Shown: positions 54,071 through 63,789 of the stretch, in pieces
Layout: every line of letters begins with the position of its first letter
Position numbering within the stretch: the first letter of the stretch is position 1
Source: Adhaeribacter radiodurans
GTDB taxonomy: Bacteria > Bacteroidota > Bacteroidia > Cytophagales > Hymenobacteraceae
NCBI RefSeq assembly: GCF_014075995.1
Contig: NZ_CP055153.1
Coordinates: 4,712,001 to 4,776,000 of the forward strand
Direction of reading: 5' to 3'
DNA: 64,000 nt
Position numbers and translations under genes: made by a program
The notes under the pieces: generated by a model
The model's database searches: none
What the model was told of the DNA's origin: nothing
The model's input: the letters and a program-made list of their open reading frames with translations, nothing else

Positions 54071-57000
54071 TTACTTTGTTAATAATATTCTTTTAACCAG
54101 GTTAGTACCTAATGCATTGAGCCGGTAAAAATAAATCCCTTTAGGTAACTTTTCCGCCTGGAATAACACTTCGTGAAATCCTGCATTTTGTGATCCATTC
54201 ACCAAGGTTGTTACTTTATTACCAATAGCATTATAAATACTTAGTTCTACATTCCCGGCTTTAGGCAAATAAAATTGGATGGTAGCCGAAGCACTGGTCG
54301 GATTAGGGAAGGCTTTCGCTGTAATCTCATTTTTAAGCGGTAAACTCACTATTTGCTCAGGAGCTTTCTGATTATTTGTTGGTTGGATAATCTGTTTTGG
54401 ATATTTTTTTCGCCGTAAAAGAGCATTCGTATTAATTTCAAATCGCTCTCCTCCTACTAAAGAATCTCTTTGATTATCGGTCCGGTATTGAGTTACATCA
54501 AAATGAAAGATACTATCATTCAATAATTTTTCTTTTACATCAAACAACACTTTAATGCCATAAACCTCTTGCGGGCTAAGTATTATATTTCCAATCCAAG
54601 CCGTAGGTTCAGAAAGGTAAATTTCGCCTCGGTTATTCACCTTTATACCCTCTCCTACTCTATCTCCTTCTAACCACTTTTTAAATAATTTCTCGCCTAA
54701 AGAAATTCTTACTACGCCAATAGCAGTAAATGGCAATTTTTCTTCTTTCGGAATGCTGAACACCAATTTGGTTCGTAAACGCTCTTGTTCCAGATAATTG
54801 CCAATGGCTACAGCGGCGGTTAAACCATCGCCGGCTGCTTCATCCACAACTGTAATATTTTTCCAGGCAATGTTGTTATTTTTCTTAACATTCAAGTTCA
54901 AATCGGTGTTTTCGGGGAAAGTCATACCGAAAGGTGCGGTAGTAGAAGTTTCGATGCGTGATAATAAACAGAAGTGAGAAAAATCGAGGCCGTAAGCACC
55001 ACTGTAATCGGCCGGATTAGGCGGGTACCAAGGAAATTCCAGGATAGTTTCTCCGCTAGCTGCAATGGTACCAGTTGGCAGAGTAGCAATAGGGCTGCCC
55101 ATTTGCAAACCACCCATTACAGCTCCTGTCCAGGGAGAGGGCCAGCTAAGCCCGGTAGACGCTTTTGCCCAATATAAATTTACGTTGCCGCTGCCGGAAC
55201 TGGTACAACTCCGGTTTCTAACCCGAACGTATACATAGTTAGGAACGCCCAAAGCTGGATCCCGGTATTCCGGATTTTGGTGAACTTGGTTTGTCAAGCC
55301 ATCGTTTTGTTTTCTAACCCAGATATCCTCGCTGCCCCACATAAACGAGGAAATATTGTTAGGTTCATTGCCGGTATCATCCGGGCGGTCTTTCGACCAC
55401 AAGTCGCCCACTGGGCCACCTACACCTACCGCGTACCAGGCATTTGCCACCTGGTAAGATTCTGGAGAACAGGCCCCAAATAAATCTTCGGCTGCCTGAA
55501 TAGTAGCATAGCGGGAGTCGATATACTGGTCCATACTGTTCATGTAATAAGTTAAGGCCTGATAAGAAATAGCGAGTGCATTATCCCGGCCAATGCCAGT
55601 TACATTATAGCTGTCACTAATATCGTTAGTACCAGTGCCGCCTTCGCTAAGTAAATAAAACCAGAAATTCTGTACTCCGGAGTTTGTATGTACGCCCCCG
55701 TGGTCTAGCACGCCGGAGTACCAGTTAGTTCCTAAATAAGTGTCAGGTTGATTTTTGTCATTCGGGTTAGACATAGAGCGTAATTTTCCGCCCGGAATCC
55801 ACATATCTTCTCCAATATCATAATCGCCAGTACCACCTTGTCCGTAGTATTCCACTGCTGTACCAAAGATATCGCTGAAAGATTCGTTTAAAGCGCCGGA
55901 TTCGTTAGAGTAAACCAAACCAGCGGTAAATTGAGTAAAGGCATGAGTTAATTCGTGCCCTACTACATCCAAGGATACAATAGCTCCGGTAGTTGCGCCA
56001 CCGCCCCCATCTCCAAAATGCATGTCCATTGTTCCACTATCCCAAAAAGCATTATCCCGTCCTGCGGCATTGTCGTTTATAAAGGCATTAAGTACCGCAT
56101 TGGCACCATCGTAGCTTTGCCGCCCGAAGGTACAATTATAATAATCATAGGTTTTTTCAAGGGCCCAATGTGCGCTGGCTCCTACCCCTGCCCAATTAGT
56201 AGTACTGTTGGTTAAATCTCCGGAAAGCAATGATCGGGTACGGATGGTTCCCCCCACATCGCCGCAGGCGCCATCGCTCCGGCAATTGTCAAATAAGCGA
56301 TAATTACCCATAGCCGTAAGTTCAGTTTGAATGGATTGGTTACCATTGTACAAAGTAGCCGCAGTAGCATTTGTACAATCCTGGATAAGGCTAATTGTCT
56401 TGATTATTTCACCGGAATAGGCATCAACATACACTCGATTATGGCTAAATGGAACGGCGGCAAAAATATCCATTTTATAAGCTAACCGGTATTTAGTAGC
56501 AGCCAAATTAAGGTTTTTACCACTTTCTACATTTACGGGCGTAAACACTAAAGTAGGCTTCGGATATAATCTACGGTCTAATTGCCATTTGTAGCGTTTA
56601 GCATTAGTATACCGCAAAGCAAAGTCTATTGCTGCATCAGCGGGCATAGAATTTCCTATCTCGGCGTTTAATTTGGGAACTACCCGCCCGTTGGCGGTAG
56701 TTAGTTCTCCTCCTTTTTGGTGAACAATAAACTCTCCTCCTTCCACGGGTATTTGCTTGTAAACTTGCTGGAACCGGTAATGAATAAAACCTAACTTATC
56801 GCTGTCAGATTTTTGCAAAGTCATTACATCATTTTCAGTTAATCCAAATACCGTAGAATAGGTTTTAAACAACTCTTGTGGGGCTAATTGTACCCCTTCC
56901 TTAAATCTTAAAAAAGTATACCTGCTGGAAGGTTGCAGGAGTGGTGCCAGAACAGATTGATTAATATCATCTACCTGAGCCATAGCCGGACTTATTAGCC

Positions 57001-57148
57001 CTATCACACTAAGAACCAGTAATACTAAAAATTTATTTTTGCCGGCATAAACCCAAGCTAACTTATTAGGATAGCTCTTAAAAAGGAAGTGCCACCATTT
57101 TCTGCTGCTTTCAAGTTCCGAGCAGGGAACAAGTTTGTACATTTTCAT
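54071..57148 (-). CDS. Secreted M4 (thermolysin-like) metallopeptidase with T9SS sorting domain
   Basis: About 1025 residues. A long N-region with hydrophobic segment (KFLVLLVLSVIGLISPAMAQ) is the export signal. FTP/PepSY propeptide (about 60-260) precedes the M4 catalytic domain, with zinc motif VVGHELTHAFTQ (His398, His402) and third ligand Glu422 in GALNESFSDIFG. Further beta domains follow, and a C-terminal type A sorting domain (AFPNPTSASATIQFYLPKAG ... GIYFYRL) directs T9SS secretion. It degrades extracellular proteins. ATG 57148 is preferred to the earlier frame start at 57238, which adds residues unlike a signal. Signal sequence placement about 38-56 residues in is longer than usual. 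Confidence 0.92.
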   Translation of the reverse strand: MKMYKLVPCSELESSRKWWHFLFKSYPNKLAWVYAGKNKFLVLLVLSVIGLISPAMAQVDDINQSVLAPLLQPSSRYTFLRFKEGVQLAPQELFKTYSTVFGLTENDVMTLQKSDSDKLGFIHYRFQQVYKQIPVEGGEFIVHQKGGELTTANGRVVPKLNAEIGNSMPADAAIDFALRYTNAKRYKWQLDRRLYPKPTLVFTPVNVESGKNLNLAATKYRLAYKMDIFAAVPFSHNRVYVDAYSGEIIKTISLIQDCTNATAATLYNGNQSIQTELTAMGNYRLFDNCRSDGACGDVGGTIRTRSLLSGDLTNSTTNWAGVGASAHWALEKTYDYYNCTFGRQSYDGANAVLNAFINDNAAGRDNAFWDSGTMDMHFGDGGGGATTGAIVSLDVVGHELTHAFTQFTAGLVYSNESGALNESFSDIFGTAVEYYGQGGTGDYDIGEDMWIPGGKLRSMSNPNDKNQPDTYLGTNWYSGVLDHGGVHTNSGVQNFWFYLLSEGGTGTNDISDSYNVTGIGRDNALAISYQALTYYMNSMDQYIDSRYATIQAAEDLFGACSPESYQVANAWYAVGVGGPVGDLWSKDRPDDTGNEPNNISSFMWGSEDIWVRKQNDGLTNQVHQNPEYRDPALGVPNYVYVRVRNRSCTSSGSGNVNLYWAKASTGLSWPSPWTGAVMGGLQMGSPIATLPTGTIAASGETILEFPWYPPNPADYSGAYGLDFSHFCLLSRIETSTTAPFGMTFPENTDLNLNVKKNNNIAWKNITVVDEAAGDGLTAAVAIGNYLEQERLRTKLVFSIPKEEKLPFTAIGVVRISLGEKLFKKWLEGDRVGEGIKVNNRGEIYLSEPTAWIGNIILSPQEVYGIKVLFDVKEKLLNDSIFHFDVTQYRTDNQRDSLVGGERFEINTNALLRRKKYPKQIIQPTNNQKAPEQIVSLPLKNEITAKAFPNPTSASATIQFYLPKAGNVELSIYNAIGNKVTTLVNGSQNAGFHEVLFQAEKLPKGIYFYRLNALGTNLVKRILLTK

Positions 57149-57724
57149 GACATAAATCTTAAATGGTTTAAAATGATTTTGGAATACTAGCCGGCCGGGA
57201 GCATTCAAGAGTTGATTACCGCAATGAAGAAAGGTCAACAGGTGATACTGAAAAATTTAAAATAAACTCGTAAAAACCTGAGGCAGAAGTTTGGCCTTTA
57301 TCTGAGACAGCCAGAAGAGTTTTTATTTATTCTGGTTTGTAGAAGTAAACAAGAAACTCTCGCAGAAACGTAATTAGTAAATTTTAAGATTGGATAAGAT
57401 TTGAAGGTTTAGTAGAAACCAAGATAAACGGCTTTATCTAATAATTTATTAAGATCATCTCCTAATTAAGGCATCATACCTAAGCACAATTAGATCTACC
57501 GAAATCACTAATAATTAGTATTTTATAAGTTTAAAACAATATCTAAACGCCCTTCGATTTAATCTATAAAATACTGAAAAATAAGTATTGATTTAAGGTA
57601 GCAAACAGTTTATCTTTATTTAAATCAGAGCCCTTGGCACCAATAACAGGCAGCTTACTTAAATAATATTCCAAGTTTTATTACTCATCTAAAATTTACA
57701 CGCTAAAATTTTAAGACCAAGACA
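57149..57724. other. Divergent intergenic region
   Basis: About 575 AT-rich bases between the M4 peptidase and the two-domain hypothetical gene. I see no repeat-family copy, RNA or terminator. It presumably holds both promoters. Confidence 0.3.
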
Positions 57725-58726
57725 ATGGATATTCCAAAAAGTGCCAGTAAAACCCGCTACAACCGGGATAGTGACCGTTTATGGGAAGAAAGTCCCTCCT
57801 GCTCCGAATACCGGATAGAATATATAATTGCCTATAAAAGTAAATACCTGAATGCTTATAAAGAGCCGGTCTTTTATAAAAAGCAGGAAGAACCAAACCG
57901 GGTAGCTCCGAAGATCAGCTCCGATGGCCCAGGCTTTTTTCACGCCTATCCCGGAGGCTTAAATATTGATCCGCGAACAGGTGAAATTGATATTAACGAT
58001 AGCGATGCCGGTGTGCGGTATACCGTAGAATTTTCGCCGTGCGGCCGGGATTGCGTTGCCCGCACCCACGTGGTAATTAGTGGTGTTGGTTACGAAGGAG
58101 GAATCTTTTCCTTAACAGAAACTCCTGCAGACGCACTTTTTATTAATCCATTTTACTTTGGCAGTACGAGTCCGGATGAAGAGATTCGTTCGGATAAAGT
58201 TCCGGCAAGGCCAGCGCCTTCCGGTGAATATGGTATAAATCCGGAGCCGAACCAGAAACCAACTGCCGACTTAATTGGGTTAATCCTGGACCCTAAGAGT
58301 GGAACTATTGACTTAAGAAAAACAATTGAATCCGGCGCTTTAGGATTCCGGCAAATCACAGATAACCCCAATGATAGATTCCCGCAAAATGGAGTAAGCA
58401 AAGATTTTACTATTTATTACCGGTTATTCAGCGGCCCGGGAAAAGAAGTACTAAATAAAACAAATGTTAGAATCCATTTCTTTGATGCGGAGGATGATAT
58501 TCCGGAAGAATTAAAGGTACGGATGCGGCAACAGAGTAACTCTATTTTCCGGCAGAGTTTGCCTTTACCTTTGCTCTTGGGAATAGCTTTATCTTCTTTA
58601 CCCGATACTTCCTGGGAAATTTTAACCACTTTGCTGACAGTGCTTTCTTCGTTTTTGTTTTTAATGGCCCGGGCAAAAGAAAGTAATAGCCCATTAATTC
58701 CGCCGGAAATTTGCATCAGAAGGTAA
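57725..58726 (+). CDS. Hypothetical two-repeat, tail-anchored protein of the CHAT cassette
   Basis: Not recognised. 333 residues with no signal peptide. Two copies of a beta-sandwich-like unit are visible: GLNIDPRTGEIDINDSDAGV (about 79-98) with a following YTVEFSPCGRDC, and GLILDPKSGTIDLRKTIESG (about 179-198) with a following FTIYYRLFSGPG. The C-terminal 50 residues are hydrophobic (two short helices, SLPLPLLLGIALSS and ILTTLLTVLSSFLFL) followed by a short basic tail. This suggests a cytoplasmic domain anchored by its C-terminus. It lies 185 bases upstream of the CHAT gene on the same strand, suggesting a shared role. The function is unknown. Confidence 0.65.
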   Translation: MDIPKSASKTRYNRDSDRLWEESPSCSEYRIEYIIAYKSKYLNAYKEPVFYKKQEEPNRVAPKISSDGPGFFHAYPGGLNIDPRTGEIDINDSDAGVRYTVEFSPCGRDCVARTHVVISGVGYEGGIFSLTETPADALFINPFYFGSTSPDEEIRSDKVPARPAPSGEYGINPEPNQKPTADLIGLILDPKSGTIDLRKTIESGALGFRQITDNPNDRFPQNGVSKDFTIYYRLFSGPGKEVLNKTNVRIHFFDAEDDIPEELKVRMRQQSNSIFRQSLPLPLLLGIALSSLPDTSWEILTTLLTVLSSFLFLMARAKESNSPLIPPEICIRR

Positions 58727-58911
58727 AGAGCGGAGTGGCTAGGGTAGGTAGTTTGTAGTATCTGTGTGTTGTTTTCTTTTTTAAGCTTATGCAAAAGTTA
58801 TTAATGTCGATCTGGTCAATGACTGATTCTTCCGGTTTTATCAGCAGAACCAGTTCCAAAATTTCTTGAGAAAGTCTGGCTTGTGCAAAAATTCTACATA
58901 AATAATTGAAT

Positions 58912-61824
58912 ATGAATATGTTAATAGCAGTAAAACTAATTACTGTGGTTCTGTTTGCCGCATTTTACTTTTCTGCCGCAGAATGTTCAGCTCAAAAAGC
59001 AACTTACCAGCAGCAGGCGCAACAGTTATGCGATGAAGCTTACACCTTATTGTTTCTGCAAGGCAAGGATAGTTTAGCTTTGCTGAAGTATCAACAGGTA
59101 AAAGCTAATTATTTTAACAAACCTGCCGTTGACTCTAACCTGGTAGATGCCTGTTTTGGAATGGGCGTTATTTACCAGATAAGAAGAAATTTTACCCAGG
59201 CGATTAAACAGTATAAAGAATCCATTACGTACCAGCAAAAAATAACTCCCGAAAAAGATTCCAGCAACTTTTATCCTTATGTACTAATTGCCGAAAATTT
59301 TATTCATCTCAATTATTATGATTCAGCTTATACTTATTACAGAAATGCTGAACATTTACTAATCCGTTACCCTAACATTCCGCAGGCGCAACGCTTCTAC
59401 AATGGTATGGGTAATCTCTATTACTTATTAGGCAATTACACCCAGAGCACCAATTATTACGAGAAAGTACTTAAAAACTTAAATCCGGACGGCAAGTCGT
59501 TTCAGCAATTAAATGAAAATGATGCTTACCGGTATATTATGTATAGTAATAATATTGCTACGGCCTACCGCAAACTTGGACTTTATCAACCAGCCATTCA
59601 AAATATAAAAGGTTTAATCCGGTATGGTATTCTGCCTAATTTATTATACCAGAATATTGCCGTTACCTATCTCCAATACAACCAGCTAGACAGCGCTATA
59701 ACTTACCTGCAGAAAATCATCACCGATAAGACAAAGGGCGCTAGCCTGGATATTATTGGCGAGCAGATTGATTTATACAATAACTGGGGAACTGTTTACC
59801 TTAAAACTAAAAATTTTAATAAAGCTTTATTTAATTTCGATAAAGCTCAGCAAATAAGTATAGCGAACTATGGCTTTAAAAACGATGGTTTGGCCATTGC
59901 CTTCGCAGGAAAAGGACAAGTGTATGAGAAACTCAGAAATTATCCTTTAGCCTTGCAGCATTACCAATCGGCTCTGCAAGCACTGCATTTTACCTTTAAT
60001 AACGCCAATGTTTATCAAAACCCGCCAGACTTTAACGGTACAGTTTCCTCCCTGCTGCTTTTTGAAGTATTAAAAAACAAAGCTGGTACGTTCCGACAAT
60101 TTTATAACCAAACCCGGAAAACTTCTGATCTTGAAGCTTCTCTCCAAACGTATGAATTAGCTTTTCAATTGGCGGACCGAATTCGTAAAAGTTATGATTC
60201 GGATGAGGCTAAATTATTCTTTAACCGTACGGTAGCTCCCACCTACGAAGAAGCCATTGCCACCGCTTTTCACCTCTTTGAGCAAACCCAACAAAAAAGT
60301 TACCTTGAAACAGCTTTTGCCTTAGCCGAAGGAAGTAAAGCAGCTGTACTGGCAGAAAGTTTACGAAAGTTAGAGATTAAAAATATTTCGGGTATCAGCC
60401 CAAGGTTGAGGCAACAAGAAGCCGACTTAAAACGCAATAATGTCGCTCTCCAGGTGAAGCTGGTAGAAGACACCGTTAGTAATTTCCGAAGAGAAATGTA
60501 CCGGGATCGTCTTCGGGAAAATGAAATTAAACTGGCGAAAATTGACAAAGAGTTCGAAAATAATAAACAATACTACCAACTCAAATACGATACGCAGCCA
60601 GTAAAAGTAAGCCCGATTCAGGAAAAACTAAGTAAACAAACAGCCATTGTTGAATACTTTATCGGGAAAAACAACTTATACGTTTTTGTTATTACATCGC
60701 AAAGTTTCGAAGCCAAACAACTTAACTCTACTAAAGCATTCCGGAAAAATTGGGCCATACTACATAAAGCTTTTTACCAACCGGAACCAACCTTTGGCTT
60801 ACCGGAAAGTCAGGCTGCACACCAATTATATCAACAATTAATAGCCCCAGTAGCGGCTTCCTTAACCGGAAAGCAACGTTTAGTAATTATCCCGGACAAA
60901 GAACTTGGATATGTACCTTTCGAGGCTTTGATTTCTGATACCAACACCAATCATTATTTAATCCAGGATAAAATTATTAGTTACGCTTATTCAGGTAAGC
61001 TTTTACCCACCGGTTCCACCAATAAATTAGTTAATCAGGAAGCTTTGGTGCTGGCCATGGCTCCTTTCGGCGCGAAGAACCACGACACCAAAACAGCCCG
61101 GCGGGCCGGAATGTTTGCTTCTTTAGATGCTTCGGCCGACGAAGTGAATCAGATTGGTAACCAAGTATTCATTGGCCCAGATGCTACTAAAGCCCTATTT
61201 GAACGATTGGCTAGTAAATCTGATATTATTCACCTGGCCACGCACGCCAGCGTTAATAACCAAGAGACATTGCAATCTTTTATTGCTTTTTACCCAAGTG
61301 ATTCGCTCAACAACTATCGACTTTACATTTCGGAAATTTACGATTTGAACTTAAGTAAGTTAAAATTGATAGTTTTGAGTGCCTGCGAAACGGGCAACGG
61401 CCAATTAGTACAAGGAGAAGGGATTATGAGTTTAGCCCGTGCTTTTAGGTACGCCGGCTGCCCCAGTACTGTAACTACCTTATGGCCGGCAGAAGATAAA
61501 GCCACAGCTTATATTACTACCCGGCTGCACGCTTATCTAAAAGCAGGAAAACCGAAAGATGAAGCCGTACAACTGGCAAAGCTTGATTGTTTAAAAAACC
61601 AAACCAATCCGCAGTTTCAATCGCCGGTTTATTGGGCAAATTTAATTTTTATCGGGGACGAAGCGCCTATCTATCAAACCACTAATTACGCTATAGTCGT
61701 TTGGATTGCGGGAAGTATGTTAGTCGTATTTTCAGTTTTATGGTTATTTTACAAACGAGGAATAATTCAAAAATCAACCACGAAAAACTCAGACACACCT
61801 CCCTCTTTAATCCCTTTAACCTAG
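58912..61824 (+). CDS. Exported TPR-CHAT domain protein with C-terminal membrane anchor
   Basis: About 970 residues. N-terminal signal peptide (MNMLIAVKLITVVLFAAFYF...AEC). Seven to ten TPR-like repeats (about 30-460) and a helical linker (about 480-560) precede a CHAT caspase-like peptidase domain (about 570-915) with His778 in IIHLATHASVNN and Cys825 in IVLSACETGNGQ, the expected His-Cys dyad. A membrane helix (about 925-947, VVWIAGSMLVVFSVLWLF) and a short basic tail end the protein, so the protease should face the periplasm. ATG 58912 is chosen over TTG 58906. It is convergent with the anti-sigma gene. Substrate unknown; the neighbouring membrane anti-sigma factor is a candidate. Confidence 0.9.
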   Translation: MNMLIAVKLITVVLFAAFYFSAAECSAQKATYQQQAQQLCDEAYTLLFLQGKDSLALLKYQQVKANYFNKPAVDSNLVDACFGMGVIYQIRRNFTQAIKQYKESITYQQKITPEKDSSNFYPYVLIAENFIHLNYYDSAYTYYRNAEHLLIRYPNIPQAQRFYNGMGNLYYLLGNYTQSTNYYEKVLKNLNPDGKSFQQLNENDAYRYIMYSNNIATAYRKLGLYQPAIQNIKGLIRYGILPNLLYQNIAVTYLQYNQLDSAITYLQKIITDKTKGASLDIIGEQIDLYNNWGTVYLKTKNFNKALFNFDKAQQISIANYGFKNDGLAIAFAGKGQVYEKLRNYPLALQHYQSALQALHFTFNNANVYQNPPDFNGTVSSLLLFEVLKNKAGTFRQFYNQTRKTSDLEASLQTYELAFQLADRIRKSYDSDEAKLFFNRTVAPTYEEAIATAFHLFEQTQQKSYLETAFALAEGSKAAVLAESLRKLEIKNISGISPRLRQQEADLKRNNVALQVKLVEDTVSNFRREMYRDRLRENEIKLAKIDKEFENNKQYYQLKYDTQPVKVSPIQEKLSKQTAIVEYFIGKNNLYVFVITSQSFEAKQLNSTKAFRKNWAILHKAFYQPEPTFGLPESQAAHQLYQQLIAPVAASLTGKQRLVIIPDKELGYVPFEALISDTNTNHYLIQDKIISYAYSGKLLPTGSTNKLVNQEALVLAMAPFGAKNHDTKTARRAGMFASLDASADEVNQIGNQVFIGPDATKALFERLASKSDIIHLATHASVNNQETLQSFIAFYPSDSLNNYRLYISEIYDLNLSKLKLIVLSACETGNGQLVQGEGIMSLARAFRYAGCPSTVTTLWPAEDKATAYITTRLHAYLKAGKPKDEAVQLAKLDCLKNQTNPQFQSPVYWANLIFIGDEAPIYQTTNYAIVVWIAGSMLVVFSVLWLFYKRGIIQKSTTKNSDTPPSLIPLT

Positions 61825-61946
61825 ATTTTGCTCTTAAGCAAATAGGGGCAAGGAGATAAAATTGCTGGTTAGCCTACCATTTTAAAATTTAACTTAAGGT
61901 GCGTTCGAGATAAGAACAGAATACAGCGTTATTCTTCTTTAAGTAC

Positions 61947-62001
61947 GTCATCCTGCAAGGATCTAACCGGTTACCTACTGGTTAGATCCTTACAGGATGA
62001 C
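61947..62001. repeat. R4 inverted-repeat element, copy 3 (short loop)
   Basis: GTCATCCTGCAAGGATCTAA and its near-perfect inverse TTAGATCCTTACAGGATGAC, with a loop of only a few bases. Wider flanks (61890-62105) show a further weak inverted repeat (GTGCGTTCGAG / CTCGAACTTAC). It sits between convergent CHAT and anti-sigma genes and may end both transcripts. Confidence 0.65.
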
Positions 62002-62125
62002 TTAGATAGACAGGAAAAAACCTGAAAATAGAATTTTATCTTTCTTGCCAGCACTTTTAGTTATTCTTAGTGTAGATAAGTCCTTAACTCGAACTTACGT
62101 TAACTTAATGCGACTATAAATAAAA

Positions 62126-62163
62126 AGCAGGTTTTATTTAATACGCCAAATAAGGCCTGCTTC
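62126..62163 (-). terminator. Terminator of the sigma/anti-sigma operon
   Basis: On the minus strand, AAGCAGGCCTTATTT pairs with AAATAAAACCTGCTT around a loop of 8 bases, followed by TTTTATTT. It starts about 27 bases after the anti-sigma stop. Confidence 0.7.
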
Positions 62164-62189
62164 TTTCATTGCTTTGCAATTGGACTACT

Positions 62190-62975
62190 TTATTCGTCGG
62201 GCAACTTCTTAAACTTCCGTTTGCTCAAAATCTCTTTTGCTTTTTCTCGATAAATATTATCTGGCGCTTTGTTAGCGGCTACTTCTTTTAATACTTTTTT
62301 AGCCTCGGCATTATTTTCCACCTTAATGTAACTTAAGCCCAGGTACCATTTAGAGGGCGTTTCAAATTGCTTGTATTGCTGCAAGTAAGTCAGGTAAGTT
62401 TTAATAGCAGCTTCTGGTTTATTAGCGGCTAAGTAAGCATTGCCCAAATAAAACAAAGATTTTTCATCGTTTTCTTTCGCTAAAAACTGCTCAAACAATT
62501 GAATACTTAGGAGGTAGTCACCTGCTCTATAAGCTTCAATTGCCCCTGTTCTCTGGTCTGCTTCAATGGGTGCTCCTCTAAAGCGTGGTATTAGATAAGG
62601 TTCGTAGTAAGCTTGGTAAATAGCCTCAGGAGTGCTTTGTCGGGTAATTAGGTTGTTTATTGCTAAAATGCTGGTAATAATTAAAACAATACTGGCTGCT
62701 GCCATTAAGAAATACCTTTGGGTATTCATTTTTACAACCTTTACCTCCGTTTCCGGCTCTTCTGCTATTTCCAGATGAAAATTCTCGAATTGCTGTTGCC
62801 TTTGTTGCCGGCCTACCGTTTTTAAATTTCTCAAAATAGCTTGCTCTACTGCCACTTCTTTTTTAAAAGATTCATCAGTAGCTAACCGGCGTTTAAAATC
62901 AGTTAATGCTTCGCCTTGCAATTGCCCCAGCAGGTATTGCTCTACCAACTCGTCTTTGTCAAAATCATCCATCAT
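62190..62975 (-). CDS. Membrane anti-sigma factor with periplasmic TPR domain
   Basis: 261 residues. The N-terminal cytoplasmic part (about 1-85; DELVEQYLLGQLQGEALTDF) has the helical pattern of Bacteroidota anti-sigma domains, without the zinc-binding HxxxCxxC motif. One membrane helix at 88-109 (YFLMAAASIVLIITSILAIN) is followed by a periplasmic TPR domain (about 140-250, YRAGDYLLSIQLFEQFLAKE, KPEAAIKTYLTYLQQYKQFE). It starts 12 bases after the sigma gene stop and is therefore co-transcribed. Binding of the ECF sigma factor is inferred from context. The TPR part on the far side of the membrane resembles the TPR region of the CHAT protein opposite, suggesting a shared partner. Confidence 0.82.
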   Translation of the reverse strand: MMDDFDKDELVEQYLLGQLQGEALTDFKRRLATDESFKKEVAVEQAILRNLKTVGRQQRQQQFENFHLEIAEEPETEVKVVKMNTQRYFLMAAASIVLIITSILAINNLITRQSTPEAIYQAYYEPYLIPRFRGAPIEADQRTGAIEAYRAGDYLLSIQLFEQFLAKENDEKSLFYLGNAYLAANKPEAAIKTYLTYLQQYKQFETPSKWYLGLSYIKVENNAEAKKVLKEVAANKAPDNIYREKAKEILSKRKFKKLPDE

Positions 62976-62987
62976 AGGGTTAGAAAA

Positions 62988-63575
62988 CTAGAAATAACCG
63001 GAAAAAGCATTTTTCAGGCGGTCTTTGCACCGGAATTTTTGCTGCTTGGCCACATTCACGCTTTTGTAGTTAAGCTTCGCGGCTAGTTGTTCCATGCTTA
63101 GTTTCTCGTAATAAAAACCTACCAGCAAACTTTTACAAGGTTCTCCTAAAGCATGAATGGCCCGAATAATCTGGCCATCGTCCGGCACTTTCACGTCTGT
63201 TTCTTCCGTTTCATCGGGTACATTCTGAACTTCAATGTAATCGTCCAAGTCTATAAACCGTTGTTTGCCTCTTAATTGGTACAGCCATTTATTACGGCAG
63301 ATTGAATAAATATATGTTTCCAGTTTACAGGTAAGAACAAAGCTTTCGCTGGATACTTTTTCCAGAAAATCGAGCATGCTGTCCTGGTATAAATCTTTTG
63401 CCTCGGCGTAGCTGCCACTGTTTAACTTTACCATTTGCAAGATTTTGGGCCAGTTGGTCTGGTACACCTGGCGGATAGTATTTTCATCGCGATTTTTTAA
63501 ATCCCGCAGAATAATCTCATCCGAATAAAGTTTTTTCAGCACTTCTGTTACCAATAAGCGATTACCCATAAGCAT
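62988..63575 (-). CDS. ECF-family RNA polymerase sigma factor
   Basis: 195 residues with both ECF domains: region 2 (about 30-95; EAKDLYQDSMLDFLEKV, then YIYSICRNKWLYQLR) that binds the -10 element and core polymerase, and region 4 (about 135-190; LSMEQLAAKLNYKSVNVAKQ, KFRCKDRL) with the -35-binding helix-turn-helix. Region 2 to 4 linker is acidic. ATG 63575 (or 63569). It is first in a two-gene operon with the membrane anti-sigma factor, and probably autoregulated, but no ECF-type promoter could be recognised upstream. Confidence 0.9.
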   Translation of the reverse strand: MLMGNRLLVTEVLKKLYSDEIILRDLKNRDENTIRQVYQTNWPKILQMVKLNSGSYAEAKDLYQDSMLDFLEKVSSESFVLTCKLETYIYSICRNKWLYQLRGKQRFIDLDDYIEVQNVPDETEETDVKVPDDGQIIRAIHALGEPCKSLLVGFYYEKLSMEQLAAKLNYKSVNVAKQQKFRCKDRLKNAFSGYF

Positions 63576-63789
63576 TACTGTAAGATATTAATACTTAACG
63601 GAATGAGAGCATACTTTAAAATTTTTATTTGTACTAAGAATGAATTGCAGAATATCGGCAAAGTCAACACTATTGAACAATAATTTTTCGGAAGGTGCCG
63701 CATTTATAAGCCAATACCGTATTTTTTATTCTTAGGTCTGTTGTAGTTGAAGTACACCGTTAAAAGAAGATCGTCAGGTAAAAGTGACT

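Follow-up and report, generated by a model that had tools for sequence, protein, structure and literature searches.

A 64,000-nucleotide stretch of Adhaeribacter radiodurans (NZ_CP055153.1, positions 4,712,001 to 4,776,000; hereafter the window) encodes an exported protein with tetratricopeptide repeats (TPRs) and a CHAT domain, convergent with genes for an extracytoplasmic function (ECF) sigma factor and a putative single-pass anti-sigma factor. We consider it slightly more probable than its opposite that these genes form a CRISPR-free transmembrane signalling cassette, with the CHAT protein as the periplasmic protease that makes the first cut in the anti-sigma factor. This reading draws on the gene association, the hydropathy-based topology, a conserved catalytic dyad, gene trees that correlate with one another, ECF-type promoter motifs shared between genes and the presence of M50 peptidases, all described below. 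From them we infer the protease activity of the CHAT protein, its substrate, the signal that starts the process and the succession of steps, and cleavage of the anti-sigma factor by CHAT is our best inference.

In the proposed mechanism, the ECF sigma factor would be held by the cytoplasmic N-terminus of the single-pass anti-sigma factor. The signal peptide of the TPR-CHAT cysteine protease would direct its export, and its C-terminal helix would tether it to the inner membrane, placing it in the periplasm beside the periplasmic domain of the anti-sigma factor. A signal, plausibly sensed by the CHAT TPR superhelix, by the product of the preceding gene (Y) or by both, would activate CHAT to cut the periplasmic part of the anti-sigma factor as the first proteolytic step. 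A general RseP-type protease would then free the sigma factor, which would turn on its own operon and genes for envelope or exported proteins.

The window locus and predicted topology

The original prediction described an exported TPR-CHAT gene convergent with an ECF/TPR anti-sigma pair, and open reading frames, Pfam and TIGR profiles and hydropathy confirmed this layout. The ECF and anti-sigma genes both point toward the CHAT gene, and the stops of the CHAT and anti-sigma genes are 365 bp apart. Y (57725-58726) lies within the range of that prediction and had been passed over. The locus, L076 in our numbering, has the following features.

57569..57596, + strand: inverted-repeat-like block AAATACT...AGTATTG, 5' of Y-CHAT; largely kept in four aligned loci of the genus (by eye)
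57725..58726, + strand: Y, 333 residues, first gene of the Y-CHAT pair; homologues lie directly 5' of CHAT elsewhere
58906..61824, + strand: TPR-CHAT protein, predicted exported, 972 residues, TTG start (Pfam CHAT and TPRs; hydropathy)
60814..61659, + strand: CHAT domain, residues 637-918 (Pfam)
61243..61245, + strand: His780 codon of the dyad (alignment of CHATs)
61384..61386, + strand: Cys827 codon of the dyad, Cys825 when counted from 58912 (alignment of CHATs)
61693..61749, + strand: predicted C-terminal transmembrane anchor of CHAT, residues 930-948, followed by a basic tail (hydropathy 2.5)
62125..62162, + strand: terminator-like hairpin between the convergent genes (weak; 1 against a shuffle mean of 0.6)
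62190..62975, - strand: putative anti-sigma factor, single-pass, with a predicted periplasmic TPR domain, 261 residues (open reading frame, profiles, topology, alignment of relatives)
62259..62543, - strand: TPR region of the anti-sigma factor, residues 145-239 (profile matches)
62658..62714, - strand: predicted transmembrane segment of the anti-sigma factor, residues 88-106 (hydropathy)
62988..63575, - strand: ECF sigma factor, 195 residues (TIGR02937, 58.5 bits)
63640..63668, - strand: candidate ECF autoregulatory promoter GTTRACYT-N15-ATTMAT (ECF upstreams of four genomes of the genus)

The CHAT domain matched Pfam PF12770 with an E-value of 1.6e-60 and 205.5 bits (gathering cut-off 24), and TPRs were also found. 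The TTG start at 58906 is followed by alternative in-frame Met codons at 58912 and 58918. The catalytic cysteine named as Cys825 in the original prediction is present, that number counting from 58912; numbered from the TTG, the dyad is His780/Cys827. His and Cys were each kept in 108 of 109 aligned CHATs, the exception being half of a split gene. Separately, the CHAT gene of G006 (L082:6500-9672) lies in two frames of 775 and 253 residues and is probably broken. Among 80 CHATs from public genomes, the two residues were each kept in 79 (the exception is truncated), including all 44 ECF-linked ones, and this conservation arises partly by selection because the search patterns cover two dyad motifs, either sufficing.

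Comparison with solved structures returned TPR proteins in both the single-sequence search (13 matches) and the profile search (best 60 of 168 matches). A single-sequence search with the CHAT domain alone found no Protein Data Bank (PDB) chain with an E-value of 1 or below, a distant relation being possible.

Hydropathy gave the CHAT protein a signal-peptide-like N-terminus, a single C-terminal transmembrane segment (930-948) and a basic tail after it, and gave the anti-sigma factor one transmembrane segment (88-106). Because of these segments, both the CHAT protein and the TPR part of the anti-sigma factor are predicted to be periplasmic, with CHAT outside the inner membrane, in agreement with the original prediction. 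Among the 44 ECF-linked public CHATs, 36 reached a crude signal-peptide score (two lack their 5' end) and 35 had a C-terminal transmembrane segment. Of 25 convergent rows in the public sample, 23 had the segment (L283 is counted twice, and frames shorter than 600 residues were dropped). Over 186 CHATs it occurred in 33 of 43 convergent rows and in 38 of the 143 others.

The ECF sigma factor matched Sigma70_r2 with 27.6 bits (cut-off 24) and TIGR02937 with 58.5 bits (cut-off 42.9). The putative anti-sigma factor adjoins the ECF gene and has a predicted cytoplasmic N-terminus and one transmembrane segment, the layout of transmembrane anti-sigma factors controlled by regulated intramembrane proteolysis. 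Its identification draws on position, topology and weak profile matches. It scored 29.9 bits against TPR_16 (E 7.5e-7), under the gathering score of 32.7, and 20 bits against NF052375 (cut-off 100). Among 25 CHAT-linked anti-sigma factors, zf-HC2 was found in four (E up to 0.01), RseA_N in one and TPR_6 in 20. The one at L072 had no Pfam match and hence no TPR match, and its counterparts in L078, L082 and L085 look similar to it on visual comparison, which weakened the earlier proposal that CHAT is activated through TPR partners. An M50 (RseP-type) peptidase is encoded in the same genome (E 3e-63) and likewise in all 14 control genomes.

An M4 (thermolysin) peptidase with a type IX secretion system sorting domain (54071-57238) lies upstream of Y-CHAT and divergent from it. 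A look-alike was seen by eye at L077, and none was present in the L080 or L081 stretches.

Association of CHAT with ECF sigma factors

A protein search found five related CHAT genes in the same genome, each near an ECF gene followed by a gene for a protein with a single transmembrane segment. A sixth, weak CHAT (4620086, 79 bits, L203) had no ECF in its stretch. Across the family, 20 of 80 genomes contained CHAT, and a gap in the scores divided the 32 matches into 19 strong ones, scoring at least 168 bits, and 13 weak ones, scoring at most 105. An ECF gene was found within about 6 kb of 18 of the 19 strong CHATs (17 of 18 loci, one locus holding two CHATs). The lone strong CHAT without one (L192) has no evident signal peptide and has transposase-like neighbours (by eye). 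Including four of the 13 weak CHATs, 22 of the 32 had an ECF gene nearby. Those four (L193, L194, L195 and L197) represent another, weaker-scoring CHAT type adjoining ECF in other genera of the family, with no evident signal peptide in L193 and L194.

The layout of these loci varied. It was convergent in the window, L071, L072 and L089; in L073 and L074, CHAT and an M48 gene diverged, with ECF following the M48 gene; and in L191, the order was ECF-anti-sigma-CHAT on one strand. L079 combines two layouts, with an M48-ECF-anti-sigma set between two CHAT genes.

A profile of window-clade CHATs was searched against public genomes, and the best 80 of at least 576 relatives were kept, none of which exceeded 38% identity in the best segment. 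An ECF gene was present in the flanks of 44 of these 80 loci (within 2 kb in 33), at 18 of the first 20, and at 22 of the 33 having at least 5 kb on both sides. The linked loci include Mucilaginibacter, Chitinophagaceae, Runella, Aquiflexum, Saprospiraceae, Aureibaculum and Zobellia. Their orientations were convergent in 26, divergent in 13 and same-strand in 5, and in L298, L305, L310 and L317 the 3' ends of the CHAT and anti-sigma frames share some 6-18 bases.

CHAT was present in 86 of 118 genomes of the order. The order sample held 80 CHAT loci (74 chosen among the matches listed and six from another search), or 79 after setting aside L166, which belongs to the window's own family. ECF genes lay within 5 kb of 13/79 CHATs and within 3 kb of 10/79, compared with two of 25 mid-points of random stretches at either distance, this control being drawn from order genomes and not from those of the public sample. 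CHAT as such is therefore not clearly linked to ECF, and we rejected a general linkage in the order. The ECF association belongs to particular CHAT clades. The neighbourhood expected by the original prediction was thus found for the window CHAT lineage (44/80 public loci and 18/19 strong family CHATs) but not for the order as a whole.

A tree of 109 CHAT domains, with 25 rows labelled as ECF-linked and distant or non-anti-sigma ECF settings left unlabelled, showed clustering of the labels (10 changes, 7 of them forced, against a shuffled mean of 22.9). Most labelled rows fell in two clades: that of the window, with 10 of its 15 rows labelled, and a second one with 11 of 12 labelled, the twelfth (L082) also having an ECF gene. 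The several orientations and at least seven forced label changes argue against a single inherited accident. Tree distances of 25 cassettes were correlated for CHAT/anti-sigma (r 0.73), CHAT/ECF (0.72) and anti-sigma/ECF (0.845), with none of 2000 permutations as high, vertical descent contributing to these values. Without three genus duplicates the values were 0.78, 0.80 and 0.84, respectively.

Direction of control and alternative roles of CHAT

We compared the regions upstream of the genes in four loci (L072, L078, L082 and L085; type B). The boxes G(T/C)TAAC and ACT(A/C)A, with equal spacing, precede both ECF and M48 in all four. A matrix built from these eight sites, picked by eye, also found strong sites upstream of a methyltransferase gene in three of the loci and no strong site before CHAT in any of the four. 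This placement suggests that CHAT lies upstream of the sigma factor and is not among its targets. Allowing up to one mismatch, the genome-wide pattern had 6, 9, 7 and 10 sites in G000, G005, G006 and G040, compared with 3, 2, 1 and 3 for the reversed control, and three of the four exact sites in G000 fall in the CHAT locus. One site lies before an S8 peptidase gene in G006 and one before an M6 peptidase gene in G040, both products being exported; the S8 gene of the L072 locus itself has no strong site before it. In the 44 linked public loci, the matrix scored at least 10 at 4/44 ECF upstreams and 0/44 CHAT/Y upstreams, which is no clear enrichment because 4.5% of shuffles did so.

The window-genus pattern GTTRACYT-N15-ATTMAT, derived from four ECF upstreams, had 10 sites in four genomes against nine for the reversed control; four of the 10 are those ECF upstreams and none is at Y or CHAT. 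The motif GTTAC-N19-AC(T/A)AAT, derived from ECF upstreams of the Y-containing class, had 18 sites in 947 kb against two in one shuffle. Nine were before ECF, two before Y (L262 and L266) and seven elsewhere, one of these (L264) being an ECF site by eye. From these motifs, the ECF genes look autoregulated, and CHAT appears to lie mostly, not always, outside the motif-defined regulon. In L262 and L266, CHAT may be a target.

These two promoters, out of 14 Y loci, favour a different role, in which ECF turns on Y-CHAT and CHAT is an envelope effector (a quality-control protease or a lytic or defence effector) unrelated to release of the sigma factor. The many CHATs without ECF nearby and the type B sites before the exported S8 and M6 peptidases also fit this role. 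However, no such motif precedes Y or CHAT in the four window-genus loci or CHAT in the four type B loci, and 26 of the 44 linked public loci are convergent and only five on the same strand. We consider it unlikely that CHAT is such an output.

Y homologues were found directly 5' of CHAT in 14 of the 80 public loci, 12 of them with ECF, and in L077, L080, L081 and L087. Outside the window genus, the family looks lipoprotein-like by sequence, with a lipobox-like Cys in 15/15 rows (by eye), two similar TGxI repeats and a conserved C-terminal tail RPPx(I/V/L)(I/V)(I/V). Members from the window genus lack the lipobox, and their tail is PPE(I/V)C(I/V). An AlphaFold2 model of Y from five rows was not used for a fold search because its mean predicted local distance difference test score (pLDDT) of 51.8 was too low. 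In L257, L254 and other Y loci, the lipoprotein tail could serve as a ligand peptide or stall translation. RAPP-like arrest peptides are described in the available part of PMC12992588; translation arrest is a lead only for Y, because it has RPP in place of RAPP/RGPP and the window copy has IPP. In L258, L266 and L269, a similar ordered set of exported or lipoprotein-like genes, a possible regulon, lies between anti-sigma and CHAT, and one gene of the set carries the ECF-type motif in L258 and L266.

Other candidate proteases occur in sister loci. Clade II loci and L108 encode an exported protein of about 550 residues with HEL(A/V)H in 11/11. This M48-like protein (L072:12136-13785, with ten relatives) carries TPRs and was passed over in the original prediction. 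Its AlphaFold2 model (pLDDT 72.5) had BepA (6sar, 6ait) as the first six Foldseek matches at probability 1.00, with TM-scores of 0.22-0.30 and plain TPR proteins as later matches. Having the HExxH motif and a modelled BepA fold, it is probably a BepA-like metallopeptidase. The Pfam M48 model matched none of the three such proteins scanned, and an M48 profile gave weak, mostly TPR, matches in the PDB; the fold search was more telling. The family occurred in 17/118 order genomes (20 matches, six within loci already sampled). Five of the 14 other loci were inspected, four having neither CHAT nor ECF; the fifth lies on a contig of 3.1 kb (L251) and shows by eye an anti-sigma-like gene with no transmembrane segment called. 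In addition, an anti-sigma factor at L160:11462-12511 has a fused C-terminal HtrA/DegS-like serine protease domain (E 2e-22), about 2 kb from CHAT.

The substrate of CHAT might instead be Y or an envelope protein exposed by stress, with the product or freed ligand sensed by the periplasmic domain of the anti-sigma factor and another protease cutting first. The position of Y directly 5' of CHAT, its conserved tail outside the window genus, the BepA-like proteins and the L160 fusion are in line with this. However, the M48-like gene was not found in the window locus, and no more than 12 of the 44 public loci with ECF were found to have Y. We regard this route as quite unlikely.

A non-proteolytic CHAT, a TPR scaffold or sensor modulating the anti-sigma factor by binding, would suit its long TPR region and the frequent TPRs of its partner (TPR_6 in 20/25). 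It is highly improbable, His and Cys being kept in 79/80 CHATs (a set picked partly by dyad motifs) and 108/109, which is not expected of a dead enzyme. That the genes are neighbours by accident, or through common descent with no functional tie, is hardly credible despite the near-background rate in the order, given ECF at 44/80 window-like loci compared with 2/25 random order-genome stretches, the several orientations and the several changes on the CHAT tree.

Several observations weigh against cleavage of the anti-sigma factor by CHAT. Linkage across the order is not clearly beyond background (13/79 vs 2/25), and the tree correlations can reflect vertical descent, which was not removed. ECF/anti-sigma pairs without CHAT exist (L075 and L086), and the ECF subfamily was found in 100 of 118 order genomes. 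The C-terminal anchor was associated with ECF over the 186 CHATs (45/78 linked vs 26/108 unlinked, p 4e-6) only when samples were pooled; within the three samples p was 0.13, 0.2 and 0.28, so that clade make-up explains much of the association. Clade II CHATs have no C-terminal anchor. The window Y reading frame has no signal peptide and has hydrophobic segments near its C-terminus, the Y-CHAT operons of L262 and L266 carry an ECF-type promoter, and the BepA-like and HtrA/DegS-like proteins are competing candidate proteases in sister loci. CHAT may cut the anti-sigma factor, cut another protein, or be an output in some lineages. The original interpretation is partly supported, in the ECF neighbourhood and periplasmic topology of the window CHAT lineage, and not in its generality across the order or in activation through TPR partners.

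Significance and comparison with known systems

Many Bacteroidota keep a gene for a membrane-tethered caspase-like protein beside, often tail to tail with, genes for a sigma factor and its membrane inhibitor. The cassette looks like an undescribed route from an outside signal to gene expression, and would be a new CRISPR-free form of protease-controlled anti-sigma signalling. A limited literature search found no description of it, and the available parts of PMC8103513, PMC3501461 and PMC13088901 contain nothing on it.

To our knowledge, few CHAT proteins have known substrates, and the cassette points to one particular candidate substrate, together with a set of partners, in named genera such as Mucilaginibacter, Runella, Aquiflexum and Zobellia. 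If cleavage occurs as proposed, a separase-like class of first-cut protease would be added to anti-sigma control, the switching-on of some Bacteroidota ECFs would be explained, and Craspase would have a CRISPR-free parallel. A wider scheme is tentative, and we hold it to be doubtful: a widespread CRISPR-independent Bacteroidota pathway from envelope to nucleoid in which tethered, separase-like CHAT replaces DegS as the site-1 protease of an ECF anti-sigma factor and is gated by docking of the conserved C-terminal peptide of the lipoprotein Y in the CHAT TPR superhelix. The Craspase triad of sigma factor, inhibitor and TPR-CHAT would then have arisen from a more ancient signalling triad, put to RNA-guided work in the cytoplasm.

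In Craspase, which belongs to the type III-E CRISPR system, the TPR-CHAT protein Csx29 cleaves the sigma inhibitor Csx30, according to the available part of PMC10028731. As far as the available parts of PMC10028731 and PMC9729208 go, both systems encode a TPR-CHAT protein with a His-Cys dyad beside a sigma inhibitor and an ECF-type sigma factor (CASP-sigma). In contrast, the window system has a signal peptide, a membrane anchor, a transmembrane anti-sigma factor, the Y gene and another compartment, and a single-sequence search, made at the level of sequence, matched its CHAT domain to no solved chain with an E-value of 1 or below. An exact 24-mer scan found no CRISPR-like repeat in the 64-kb window, and PADLOC found no Cas protein among the four window proteins scanned, as anticipated by the original prediction. 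The ECF54 group also has CHAT and protease genes (subtilase, carboxypeptidase) near ECF, as given in the available part of PMC8999054; in the window, unlike that group, the anti-sigma gene adjoins ECF.

The DegS/RseA/RseP (sigma-E) system likewise combines a single-pass anti-sigma factor with a periplasmic domain, a periplasmic first cut (proposed for the cassette) and an M50 peptidase. Furthermore, the type B motif precedes the BepA-like gene, and bepA belongs to the sigma-E regulon of Escherichia coli. The two differ in the protease, DegS being a serine protease and CHAT a separase-like cysteine protein, and in having PDZ, a feature of the sigma-E system, or TPR domains. The gene association, predicted topology and dyad therefore fit a DegS/RseA-like module with CHAT in the place of DegS, for which Craspase is the precedent.
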